Assembly: GCA_031257775.1 (NCBI GenBank)
Contig: JAIROA010000040.1
Span: 1 to 38,894, forward strand
Length of the DNA stretch: 38,894 nt
Reading direction: 5' to 3'
Source of the DNA: Synergistaceae bacterium
GTDB taxonomy: Bacteria; Synergistota; Synergistia; Synergistales; Synergistaceae
Part shown: piece by piece, positions 33,956 to 38,685 of the stretch
How the letters are laid out: the number at the start of each line of letters is the position of its first letter
How positions within the stretch are numbered: the first letter of the stretch is position 1
Made by a program: the position numbers and the translations under genes
The notes under the pieces: generated by a model
Seen by the model: only the letters and a program-made list of their open reading frames with translations
Databases searched by the model: none
Told to the model about the DNA's origin: nothing

Positions 33956-36430
33956 TCAATTCGTGTGCCGGCCCTCGGCGCCGGAATTCATCAGCTCCAC
34001 ATATTCCTCTTTCGTGTTGAAATTTTTCAATTCCGCGGCCTGCCCGGGAGAGAGGCCGAAATACTTCATCCTGACCTTGGCGTAAGCCAGCGCGATCTTA
34101 TAGCGGATGCCCTCTATTAGCTCCTTGAAAACAGGAATCATGCTTTTATGGTATACCCCGCAGAGAGAATGCACCCGCCCGTTTTCCTCCCGTGCCACGC
34201 AGCACTGGTATCCCTCGGCGGCACGGCACATCTCGCGTATCAGGGAAGCGCTCAAAAATGGCGTGTCGCACGCGGTGACGAAGAGATATTCATGCCTGCT
34301 CGCGACAAGCGACGAGTATATGCCCCCGATGGGCCCCGCTCCCGGGTAAATGTCCGGCACGATCCGGGCATTTACCCCTCTGTACTTTTCGTGTCCGGCA
34401 GATGAAATCATGACGTCCGGGAACATCGAGAGGGTCTGCAGTGTCGTCTCAAGGAAATTTTTCTCCCGCAGCTTCAGAAGCGCCTTGTCCGTCCCCATGC
34501 GGAGGCTTTGCCCTCCCGCAAGCACTACGGCGCTCATCATGCCGGGAAGGCCCGATGCCAGCCATTCCAGCGAAAGCGACTTTAGCTTTTCCGGCGGCGG
34601 ATTGCCGGAAGGCCCGTCCCATCCGCAGAGGGAGTAATAAAGTTCCCTTGCCTCGTCGAAATTGCGCCTGTCGACCCGCGCGCCTTTGGACGGGCCGTCG
34701 GGCAGAGGGTCGAAAAAACGGCTTGGCAGCGTATCGTCTTTTTTCGTGAAGCCCTCCCTGGCGTTAAAATGCCGCATCATGTTGAGCTTCCTCTCCCCGA
34801 TTTCCATCAGTTCCTCGACCGAAGTCTTCCACCCGATGCCGGACGAGGCCAGGTCAAGGATATCATCCGGCCCCAGTGCCTGCCAGCTCGGCCCCCACAC
34901 GAACTGGCACATGCAGAGCGTATCGAGCAGGGAATAGAAGCGCTGAGTGAGAAGGGCAAATCGCACCCTCAGCTCGTCCAGCTCCGTCTTATCCCGGGAT
35001 CCCGGAATCCTGAAACTTTTGTCGCTCACCCCTAAAGACGAGAGCCATCTTCGGGCAGGGCTGCCCATTGGGGCAAAGAGCATCGTGTCGTGCTCGCTGG
35101 ACTGATGATCCGCTCCTGTCGGGTTTACGGCATATATCAGGCCCAAAGACGGTTTCATCTGGGGCATATGAGCCGGGAGTTCCTGCCCCTTCGACGCGGG
35201 GACAAGCTCTCGCGACTTACATCCTATGATTTCGGCGGCTCTTTTGCTGCCCTCCGCCAGTATGTTTCCGATGCCCTCCCTGCGAGCTATCATCATCATG
35301 AGCCTGTGAACCGATTCGGAATCCCCGAAAGCGAGCTTCATTCCGGCATCCCTTTCAGAGATCAGCCCCTTCGAAAAGCACTCTATGGCAAACGAGATGG
35401 TGGCCCCGCATGATATAGTGTCCATCCCGTACATATTGCAGATCTGGTTCGACATGTTTATGGATTCGCCCGACGTTATGCCGCAATACGAACCCACCGC
35501 CGCTATGGTCTCGTATTCCGGTCCTCCGTAGCGGGGCTCCAGTTTGGGCGATTTTTCGGCGATCCTCTTGCATTCAAGCGGACAGGCGTAACATTTCCCG
35601 CCGCCTTTTACGCTCAAGCCCGCAAAATCAGGGAACCAGCCGCTGCTGAAGTTATTTGTGGGCAGATATCCCATATCGCGCAAAGGCCCCACGTTGCCGG
35701 GAGTGCCATGAGCGCTGAAATCCTTCCAGAACGGGTCGCCAAGCCTTTCAGCGGCCCTGCGGTTTATGCCGCCCAAAGCGCCCGGATCGGCTGGAGTGGG
35801 TTTTGGGGCACAGGATACGGCAAGAGCGCGGAGATTTTTCGAACCCATCACCGCCCCTATGCCTGTCCTGCCATTCGCCCTGGAACAGTTGTGGACGACG
35901 CAGGCAAATCGCACGAGATTTTCCCCCGCGGGCCCGATTTGCGCTATTTCGGCATTGCCGCCCAGTTCCCGGCTGATGATGTCCTCCCCGTCCCCCGTCG
36001 TCTTTCCCCATATATGCGCGGCTGGCCGGATCTCGGCGTTTCCATCTTTTATATGTATGTATGCGGGGCGTTCCGACCTGCCGCTCACGGCTAACGCGCT
36101 TATGCCATTGGCCGCGAACTCGGCCGGCAGGAAACCTCCCGCCTGGCTGTCGCCGATGCCTCCGGTGAGAGGGCTTTTCGCGGCCGCCACTATGCGGCTC
36201 AATCCGGCAACGGGAAGGCCCGTAAAGGGGGAAACCGCAAAGACGAGCAGATTATCGCATGAGAGGGCATCCGTCCCGGGACGCACCCTTTCAAGCAGCA
36301 GGCGGACAGCAAGGGCCGAGCCGCCCGGATAGAGCCTGTAATCCCGGCCCGGGATAGTTTCCCTCCAGACGGCGCCCCGGCTGAGGTCGACGTTCAATAT
36401 AACGGCGTCGGGAAAATCAAAACTATTCAT
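33956..36430 (-). CDS. Fusion protein: aldehyde:ferredoxin oxidoreductase (tungsten/Mo-pterin) with C-terminal MobA-like molybdenum cofactor guanylyltransferase
   Basis: AOR features: 'GGSALAVRLLLERVRPGTDAL', 'SPLTGGIGDSQAGGFLPAEFAANGISALAVSG', 'GRTGIGAVMGSKNLRALAV', [4Fe-4S] 'CYACPLECK', 'LDTLCMC'. MobA features from about 34540 down: 'SAVVLAGGQSLRMGTDKALLKL', 'IYPGAGPIGGIYSSL', 'VTACDTPFLSASLI'. Start set at MNSFDF overlapping the mobB stop. Confidence 0.9.
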   Translation of the reverse strand: MNSFDFPDAVILNVDLSRGAVWRETIPGRDYRLYPGGSALAVRLLLERVRPGTDALSCDNLLVFAVSPFTGLPVAGLSRIVAAAKSPLTGGIGDSQAGGFLPAEFAANGISALAVSGRSERPAYIHIKDGNAEIRPAAHIWGKTTGDGEDIISRELGGNAEIAQIGPAGENLVRFACVVHNCSRANGRTGIGAVMGSKNLRALAVSCAPKPTPADPGALGGINRRAAERLGDPFWKDFSAHGTPGNVGPLRDMGYLPTNNFSSGWFPDFAGLSVKGGGKCYACPLECKRIAEKSPKLEPRYGGPEYETIAAVGSYCGITSGESINMSNQICNMYGMDTISCGATISFAIECFSKGLISERDAGMKLAFGDSESVHRLMMMIARREGIGNILAEGSKRAAEIIGCKSRELVPASKGQELPAHMPQMKPSLGLIYAVNPTGADHQSSEHDTMLFAPMGSPARRWLSSLGVSDKSFRIPGSRDKTELDELRVRFALLTQRFYSLLDTLCMCQFVWGPSWQALGPDDILDLASSGIGWKTSVEELMEIGERKLNMMRHFNAREGFTKKDDTLPSRFFDPLPDGPSKGARVDRRNFDEARELYYSLCGWDGPSGNPPPEKLKSLSLEWLASGLPGMMSAVVLAGGQSLRMGTDKALLKLREKNFLETTLQTLSMFPDVMISSAGHEKYRGVNARIVPDIYPGAGPIGGIYSSLVASRHEYLFVTACDTPFLSASLIREMCRAAEGYQCCVAREENGRVHSLCGVYHKSMIPVFKELIEGIRYKIALAYAKVRMKYFGLSPGQAAELKNFNTKEEYVELMNSGAEGRHTN

Positions 36431-36954
36431 CACGCACCTGCCTGACTGCTGCACAGATATGTCTTTACAATAAGCTCCGCGACGTTATGGTAATCGTCAA
36501 GGCCAAAAACAGGCACCGTGCCGGGCAGGTCAGGAAAAATCCCAACATCGCTGACGACGGCGACCAGGTCTCGCGGATCCGTGACCACGTCCGTCCCTTT
36601 TTCCGCGCGCACGACCTCGATTTTCGGCCTGTCCGCTCCTTTATAGCCTTCGACAAGAATGATATCGACATTCTTCAGCATGGCCGCTACTGTTTCCAGG
36701 TCTTCCTTGTCAGGTGTTTTCTGAATCAGCGCGTAGGCCCCCGGTCCGATAATAGCCGTAGCCTTCGCGCCCGCCTGAGTAAACCGCCACGTATCCTTGC
36801 CCTCCCGATCCATCTGCATTTCGTGGCTGTCGCTCTTGATCGTGCCAACGGAATATCCTCGCGCCGTCATCTCCTCCACGACCTTCTCCAAGAGCGTTGT
36901 CTTGCCCGTCCCGGAACGCGCCGCCACGAAACATACGACAGGAGCGGCCGTCAT
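36430..36954 (-). CDS. mobB: Molybdopterin-guanine dinucleotide biosynthesis protein B
   Basis: 'CFVAARSGTGKTTLLEKVVEEMTARGYSVGTIKSDSHEMQMDREGKDTWRFTQAGAKATAII', 'IILVEGYKGADRPKIEVVR'. Confidence 0.93.
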   Translation of the reverse strand: MTAAPVVCFVAARSGTGKTTLLEKVVEEMTARGYSVGTIKSDSHEMQMDREGKDTWRFTQAGAKATAIIGPGAYALIQKTPDKEDLETVAAMLKNVDIILVEGYKGADRPKIEVVRAEKGTDVVTDPRDLVAVVSDVGIFPDLPGTVPVFGLDDYHNVAELIVKTYLCSSQAGA

Positions 36955-38195
36955 TTCAATTGCCCGTTCCCTATCTCGAAATTCCCCGCCCGCGTCACAT
37001 AAGCCTTAATGCGCGTTCCGGGAGGGATAGGGCCGCTGCCTTCCGGGATCATTCCCAAAAGCGCGGTGCCGATGAACGAATCCAGAACCCCGTTCCCCTG
37101 CTTTTCGGCCGTTATCATGACTGACCTGCCGTCTTCTACGGCAAGGCGTCCGCGCACGAACCGTTTGTGGAAGCTCGGCTTATTGATCCCGCTCTTCAAT
37201 GCTACGTCGATTTCTTCGTTCTGCCACCGGGAGCGTCCTGCCATACGGCAGACATACGGAGAGGCGAGCAGATGAAAACTGAGCATGGCCGCTGCGGGGC
37301 TTCCGGAAAGGCACAGGATCATCTTGCCGTATTTCCGGGCAGCCAGGACTGCCCCGCCGGGTTTGATGCGGATGCGCCAGAAGATGGCACGGGCGCCGAT
37401 TTTTTGAAGGGCTTCTTGCATTAAGTCGTAATCTCCGACTGAGACGCCTCCTGTCGTGATTATCATATCGGCGTCCCTCAGGCCGCTCTCAACAGCCGCG
37501 CCAATCGCTTCCGTCTCGTCGCGCGCGATGCCCAGAAAAACCGGTTTTGCCCCTATCGCCAGCAAAGCGCCTGCCAGGGCATACGTGTTGCTGTTGCGGG
37601 TTTTGCCCTGCGTCAGTTCCGCTCCGACCGGCACGACTTCGTCGCCCGTGCTGAGAATCGCTACGTTAGGCTGCCTGTATACCGGGACGTCCTCCATGCC
37701 CAAAGACGCCATCATGCCGATTAGGGCGGGGTCGATCACCGTGCCTTTTGGGGCGATCATGGTGCCTTTTGCTATGTCCTCGCCTATCGGGATAATATTC
37801 TGGCCTGATTTACACTGAGCGGATACGATTATGCCGTCGCCGTCCTCGCGGGTTTCCTCAAATTTTACGACGCAGTCAGCGCCTGCCGGGACCGGAGCGC
37901 CTGTCATGATCTTCGCAGCCTGGCCGGGGCTCACCTCCAGCCTCGGCATGTGCCCGGCGGGAACTTCCTCAGTGACGCTGAGCGTAACGGGCCGCTCCCG
38001 CGACGCCAATGCAAGATCTGCCGCCCTCATGGCATAGCCGTCAAAGGGCGAGCGGTTGAATGGCGGGACATTTTCCCCAGCCAGGATATCTTGCGCCAGC
38101 ACCCTGTAGAGCGCGTCCATTAAGCACACATTTTCAGTGCCGATTTCCTGGCGCATCTCGGACATGAGTCTGGAAGCTTCCTCCAGACTGACCAT
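36951..38195 (-). CDS. moeA: Molybdopterin molybdenumtransferase
   Basis: 'FNRSPFDGYAMRAADL', 'GQAAKIMTGAPVPAGADCVVKFEET', 'ILSTGDEVVPVG', 'ITTGGVSVGDYDLMQEAL', 'LSGSPAAAMLSF'; start MVSLEEASRL; 4-nt overlap with mobB. Confidence 0.95.
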   Translation of the reverse strand: MVSLEEASRLMSEMRQEIGTENVCLMDALYRVLAQDILAGENVPPFNRSPFDGYAMRAADLALASRERPVTLSVTEEVPAGHMPRLEVSPGQAAKIMTGAPVPAGADCVVKFEETREDGDGIIVSAQCKSGQNIIPIGEDIAKGTMIAPKGTVIDPALIGMMASLGMEDVPVYRQPNVAILSTGDEVVPVGAELTQGKTRNSNTYALAGALLAIGAKPVFLGIARDETEAIGAAVESGLRDADMIITTGGVSVGDYDLMQEALQKIGARAIFWRIRIKPGGAVLAARKYGKMILCLSGSPAAAMLSFHLLASPYVCRMAGRSRWQNEEIDVALKSGINKPSFHKRFVRGRLAVEDGRSVMITAEKQGNGVLDSFIGTALLGMIPEGSGPIPPGTRIKAYVTRAGNFEIGNGQLK

Positions 38196-38685
38196 CGTTT
38201 TCAAGCGCGCGCACCTCCCATGCCTGAGCGGCATATCGCTAACAGGCATATAAGGCTAGCGTGCCTTGTGCCAACAGCACAAAATCTACATGACATCTTT
38301 TCGGTCATCTCCTTCGCAAATGGGCAAGCAGCGCGATTTCTCCCGCTACTCCGTGGGCTTGCAGCCCAGGCCTCGGATCCGTGGCTTATGAAGCGCGGTC
38401 GCGCCCGCCGCTTTAGGATATCGAGGCTTGGAGAAATTTTCGTCATGGCATTTTTAAAATGATTATTTACAAATCCTCACGATCATTATATCGCATTAAT
38501 GGCACTCGTAAAGCATCGAAAATATGTGATGTCACCCCGGTGTCATTACCATTTTCAGACACGGAATCACCCTTTGCGGGAGTCTTTTTTGAGCGCCCGG
38601 CGTTCTCCGCGCTACAGCACCCATTGCCTCAAGGCTTTCAACTCTTCTGGGATTTTTTCAACGCAGACCGGCAGAAAACCGCCGT

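Follow-up and report, generated by a model that had tools for sequence, protein, structure and literature searches.

The window, i.e. the whole stretch of 38,894 nucleotides that was analysed, carries on its minus strand a unit of a riboswitch, moeA, mobB and an open reading frame in which an aldehyde oxidoreductase (AOR) is joined to MobA. The features are as follows.

38293..38445, minus strand: Moco/Wco riboswitch RF01055, 61.9 bits at a gathering score of 36
36951..38249, minus strand: moeA, molybdopterin molybdo/tungsto-transferase (Pfam MoeA_N, MoCF_biosynth and MoeA_C)
36430..36954, minus strand: mobB (PF03205, 5e-43; TIGR00176 above cut-off)
33956..36430, minus strand: aor::mobA fused ORF, 824 aa (ORF scan, Pfam, PDB alignments)
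34559..36400, minus strand: AOR part, residues 11-624 (alignments to 1aor, 9g7j and nine relatives)
34541..34558, minus strand: linker ASGLPG, six residues (junction alignment with G001, G002 and G030)
33959..34540, minus strand: MobA part, residues 631-824 (PF12804, NCBIfam MobA models, alignment to 2e8b and 1e5k)

The genes moeA, mobB and aor lie on the same strand with successive overlaps of one to four bases, and the fused ORF ends the operon. The likely start of moeA is about 18 codons internal at MVSLEEA; the gene is 70% and 67% identical to its counterparts in G001 and G002, two genomes of the same genus. RF01055 is located directly upstream of moeA in the window and also precedes moeA in G001 and G002. 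A hairpin occupies its P3 position, and P3 was associated with Moco rather than Tuco sensing in the original description of the element (PMC2408646). By P3, the assignment of which is our reading of the alignment, this copy would be of the Moco type.

The fused ORF is an uninterrupted minus-strand frame from 36430 to 33956 that encodes an AOR (residues 11-621) and a MobA domain (residues 634-772 and beyond), both complete, far above chance. In its longest form the frame begins at GTG 36454; the likelier start is ATG 36430, which shares TGATG with the stop of mobB, and the end is at 33956. ORF scan, Pfam and PDB alignments thus bore out the single-ORF fusion of AOR and MobA put forward in the original prediction, and its coordinates and motifs, i.e. 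cluster cysteines, MobA signature and DTPF, were all correct. The prediction did not mention that a riboswitch, moeA and mobB lie upstream or that relatives have two genes.

In the AOR part Pfam detected AFOR_N with 8.1e-65 (residues 11-205, 218.7 bits at a cut-off of 29.8) and AFOR_C with 3.6e-106 (residues 233-621, 356 bits at a cut-off of 27). The P. furiosus enzyme 1aor was found as a PDB relative with 1.5e-97 across residues 12-621. The [4Fe-4S] cysteines C280, C283, C287 and C508 (CxxCxxxC plus a distal Cys) were invariant in ten aligned AORs. E312 and H448 of 9g7j, the catalytic residues named in PMC12727526, correspond to Glu307 and His442. The fused protein is thus an AOR-family member in both domains, the cluster cysteines and the catalytic Glu and His.

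The MobA part contains the motifs LAGGQSLRMGTDKA, CDTPF and, near the C-terminal end, NFNT. NTP_transf_3 (PF12804) matched residues 634-772 with 1.4e-33, far over cut-off, and the MobA structures 2e8b and 1e5k were PDB relatives of the C-terminus. NCBIfam MobA models scored 96-131 bits, those for MocA 37.7 bits; the curated MobA equivalog cut-offs were missed with 96.3 of 151.85 bits for TIGR02665 and 131.3 of 379 bits for PRK14489. By sequence the C-terminal part is MobA-like, with MocA a much more distant match, and it presumably has the function of MobA. An AlphaFold model based on a 19-row alignment was good for the AOR and of low confidence at the junction (pLDDT below 50 for residues 626-635), and MobA was poorly resolved because the alignment was shallow. 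The model agrees with two domains that are independent and joined by a flexible tether; it is silent on docking.

Among 61 genomes around that of the window (G000) the best matches were found in G001, G002 and G030, the last of the same family, with identities of 81-84% for AOR and 69-78% for MobA. Each of the three has aor and mobA as two separate, overlapping ORFs, and the adjacency of the two genes was seen in four genomes, that of the window included. The junctions differ by one base. In G001 and G002 the AOR ends at TGA inside ATATGACC or the equivalent (ATATGA), and an ATG within the same stretch can open MobA. In G030, with the junction ...CCAAAATGATGAGC, the TGA that ends the AOR lies inside the ATGATGAGC that starts MobA (ATGATGA). 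The window reads ...CGGGCCTTCCCGGCATGATGAGC; here ATGATGAGC is kept as in G030 with one additional base upstream, and because of this extra base the AOR frame continues into MobA. The fused junction is EWL-ASGLPG-MMSAVVLAGGQSLRMGTDKA, and the MobA part opens with a retained ATG ATG, the start of the ancestral separate gene. The alignment with the three relatives places the extra base within the linker, in the GGG at 34551-34553; dropping one G from this run brings the AOR stop exactly to ATGATGA as in G030.

The same observation may be read as a sequencing or assembly error, i.e. a base wrongly added in GGG 34551-34553 of a genome that in truth has two overlapping genes. Deletion of one G yields a stop/start overlap identical to that of G030, every relative with the aor and mobA pair is unfused, and the source assembly is fragmented (2.12 Mb in 144 contigs, 80% complete). 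On the other hand, the G run is just three bases long, no frame break is evident in moeA, mobB or the other long ORFs of the window that have Pfam matches, and an indel between stop and start is lightly constrained, so that a real one would be easily tolerated. We clearly favour a real fusion that would exist in the living population, and consider an error unlikely, if by no means negligible.

A real fusion would have arisen as follows. The ancestral state would be a moeA-mobB-aor-mobA operon under control of a Moco riboswitch, with aor and mobA translationally coupled via the ATGATGA stop/start overlap. In the genome of the window, insertion of one base directly ahead of the overlap would have merged the two frames, so that a single protein with a short, flexible linker would now be made from aor and mobA.

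Selection was assessed by dN/dS (Nei-Gojobori). The window compared with its relatives gave 0.13-0.15 for AOR and 0.16-0.19 for MobA; the corresponding values among the unfused relatives were 0.09-0.14 and 0.15-0.23. Both parts are under purifying selection like those of the unfused relatives. The similarity of the values argues that both parts are functional and that the fusion has left no selective mark; nothing in dN/dS pointed to a fusion that is old or under special selection.

Other fusions were sought with a probe of 274 aa that spans the C-terminus of the AOR and MobA; a joined match would rank high within the listed matches of this probe. Among the matches listed, no joined AOR-MobA match was present in 188 Synergistota genomes, in 40 genomes with the nearest AORs, in a class-level sample of 391 genomes around an Acidaminobacter locus or in 400 genomes of the phylum of a Thermoflexus locus, which we took as Chloroflexota. 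In these roughly 1,000 genomes the listed matches were separate AOR or MobA matches only. Two long frames with MobA in the class-level sample (G489 and G343) consist of a formate dehydrogenase, a stop codon and a separate mobA and are not fusions. When the 80 nearest AOR loci on GTDB-based contigs were inspected, mobA was detected nearby in the three Synergistaceae loci only; at the 77 further loci, with AORs of about 45-54% identity, no mobA was detected in the flanking sequence covered, which extended up to 6 kb to either side. A fusion common to more than one species, on which a Rosetta-stone argument is built, was absent from the genomes searched. A search of the open-access literature yielded no paper on an AOR::MobA fusion, and the fusions tabulated in the accessible part of a survey of molybdoprotein fusions belong to the DMSOR, SO and XO families, none of them with MobA.

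The suggestion that the fusion is more than an artefact or private mutation was not upheld, since all three relatives carrying the pair have two separate genes. Most likely the fusion either arose recently and privately in this genome or is an assembly error, and it is not evidence for a new kind of cofactor.

Enzymes of the AOR family have been described with two pterins and no nucleotide (PMC10413684, PMC12727526). The AOR of the window aligns end to end with such nucleotide-free AORs, and Pfam detected no dinucleotide-binding domain in it. YdhV of E. coli is a further member of the AOR family. It takes bis-MPT and not bis-MGD, and E. coli MobA converts its bis-MPT to bis-MGD in vitro (PMC9103625).

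According to the original prediction the AOR might use an MGD-type cofactor. This would mean that the AOR of the operon receives a nucleotide-bearing cofactor from its own MobA, in line with aor and mobA lying side by side in four genomes and with G030, which keeps both genes without another visible MGD client. Yet the domain for the dinucleotide was not detected, the end-to-end alignment is with nucleotide-free AORs, YdhV fails to bind bis-MGD (PMC9103625), a single one of the genomes searched has the fusion, the MobA motif of G030 is unusual in spite of a conserved AOR, and 77 AOR loci do without a detectable mobA nearby. We therefore regard an MGD-type AOR as very improbable, and the claim was not sustained.

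A second possibility is that the AOR serves as a carrier or scaffold that holds bis-MPT and hands it to the tethered MobA for conversion to bis-MGD, destined for formylmethanofuran dehydrogenase (Fwd), i.e. substrate channelling. MobA does turn bis-MPT derived from YdhV into bis-MGD in vitro (PMC9103625), and the catalytic Glu was lost in three unfused orthologs as if catalysis were no longer selected. By contrast, the fused protein retains catalytic Glu307 and His442, and AOR and MobA are separate proteins in the relatives. A hand-over of this kind appears most unlikely. The loading or chaperone role named in the original prediction is conceivable but drew no support from the analysis. It is just as doubtful that an AOR-fold protein was drawn into the assembly of bis-MGD, with the fusion making the hand-over explicit and the Glu loss in the orthologs foreshadowing it; we nevertheless find a scaffold more interesting than a nucleotide-bearing AOR.

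As to the glutamate itself, the codon of Glu307 is located at 35512-35510 on the minus strand and corresponds to E312 of 9g7j. The residue was present in 91 of 94 AOR loci examined, and the unfused orthologs L085, L086 and L087 have Gly, Ala and Gly, respectively, at this position. A second AOR of 725 aa is encoded in the genome of the window (contig C125, locus L182, 5305-11698) near two MoeA-like genes and a gene that from its sequence we take to be ThiF/MoeB-like; mobA is absent there.

The cofactor of archaeal Fwd is bis-MGD, as seen in the structure 5t5i. Contig C21 of the window's genome (locus L083, 2971-7174) encodes FwdD, FwdB and FwdA together with Ftr. FwdB matched the tungsten FwdB of 5t5i with 4.7e-120, including the region of the CHGP motif, and TIGR03129 with 510 bits; FwdD has the dinucleotide-binding domain. 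Fwd, i.e. FwdB/FwdD, is the only recognised bis-MGD client in this genome, which is 80% complete so that others may be missing. A formate dehydrogenase was rejected as a client, there being no PF00384 match above cut-off.

The relatives are informative as well. In G001 the fwd-ftr cluster follows at about 5 kb past moeA, and in G002 it is no more than 10 kb away. In G033, with an FwdB of 89% identity, the end of moeA (69% identical in its C-terminal part) is followed by mobB and then by a MobA match, with no aor between them. In G003, of the same genus and 93% complete, this aor, mobA, moeA and Fwd are all absent together. The linkage in G001 and G002, the operon of G033 without aor and the joint absence in G003 therefore suggest that MobA is in the service of Fwd. 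A counter-case is G030 (87% complete), where aor and mobA are present and a Fwd, PF00384 or PF01568 protein is not. The MobA of G030 (locus L067, contig C81) reads RMR where every other listed copy has RMG or RFG, which is suggestive only and may indicate decay, MobA being no longer needed while the AOR is conserved. G001 and G002 each carry a PF00384 enzyme of 718 aa; hence Fwd is not the sole possible client there. For a tungsten bis-MGD enzyme, an order of MoeA1-MobB followed by MobA has been proposed on the basis of deletion and interaction data (PMC13197769).

Taken together, MobA most likely supplies bis-MGD to Fwd, as far as can be judged from gene content and linkage, and aor would be a further member of the cofactor operon. 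Of the three explanations offered originally, loss of a stop with MobA serving other enzymes fits best, in the form of a one-base frame merge at an overlapping junction. Service to another enzyme is supported, but the proposed formate dehydrogenase has to be replaced by Fwd, because the genome has no PF00384 protein above cut-off and contains FwdB and FwdD.

Several loci nearby in content were noted. Fwd was also found in G001 (contig C123), G002 (C50) and G033 (C130), and FwdB proteins of 46-50% identity occur elsewhere in the phylum. Archaeal-type FwdD/B/A and Ftr represent a C1 module of the tetrahydromethanopterin type in gut-type Synergistaceae; a literature search for the Fwd module in such Synergistaceae gave no paper. 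The second MobA-like gene of the window's genome, on contig C3, is an NTP transferase of the DVU_1551 type and not MobA; on this contig (locus L084, 4031-9465) a modABC-type transporter lies beside an HD-domain NTP transferase of the DVU_1551 family and a MoCF_biosynth protein. In G489 (locus L185, 2577-6648) a formate dehydrogenase, mobA and an FdhD-like gene stand in a row, a precedent for mobA adjoining a bis-MGD client; the names of these genes are our assignment from their sequences. The next closest MobA, about 60-63% identical, is found in G144 (locus L068, 925-8086), where its neighbours are moeA and a pyrogallol-hydroxytransferase-like PF00384 enzyme and there is no AOR.

The AORs of P. 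furiosus (1aor) and C. autoethanogenum (9g7j) share with the fused protein full-length AFOR_N and AFOR_C, the four cluster cysteines and the catalytic Glu and His, whereas the C-terminal MobA extension and the cofactor operon context are particular to the latter; in addition, Asn93 and Lys450 of 1aor correspond to Gln96 and Ser444 of the fused AOR. The MobA proteins of E. coli (1e5k) and Aquifex (2e8b) likewise have LAGGxSxRMGxDKA, CDTPF and NxN-type C-terminal motifs in one NTP_transf_3 domain; the MobA of the window differs in being under the NCBIfam equivalog cut-offs. Known MobA proteins are standalone or fused to MobB or MoaC, whereas this one is attached to an oxidoreductase. YdhV resembles the AOR part as a bis-MPT-binding family member in a cell that contains MobA, but it is separate from MobA, and no MGD is formed from its pterin to serve YdhV itself. 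The late tungsten-cofactor pathway of M. extorquens (MoeA1, MobB, MobA, FdhD) has the moeA, mobB and mobA steps to a bis-MGD enzyme in common with the window; its client, however, is formate dehydrogenase with no AOR in the set, compared to the proposed Fwd.

We consider it reasonably probable that the locus is a frame-merged operon end with an ordinary nucleotide-free AOR and an ordinary MobA that makes bis-MGD for Fwd. The most probable role of the AOR part would be that of an ordinary oxidoreductase for aldehydes or a related reaction, its W or Mo cofactor being a nucleotide-free bis-pterin. MobA, tethered to it, would most likely be an ordinary GTP-dependent guanylyltransferase that provides bis-MGD for FwdB/FwdD, and the function of the fused protein most likely the sum of its parts.

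If real, the fusion would clearly exemplify how a single base can join two operon genes that were coupled in translation, in an architecture that we did not find described in the open-access literature. Taken alone, the fusion leaves standing the rule of a nucleotide-free pterin in AORs. A better lead than the fusion is the surrounding module of riboswitch, moeA, mobB, aor and mobA, linked to Fwd in relatives, by which an AOR is connected with the provision of tungsten/molybdenum for a C1 pathway in gut Synergistaceae.
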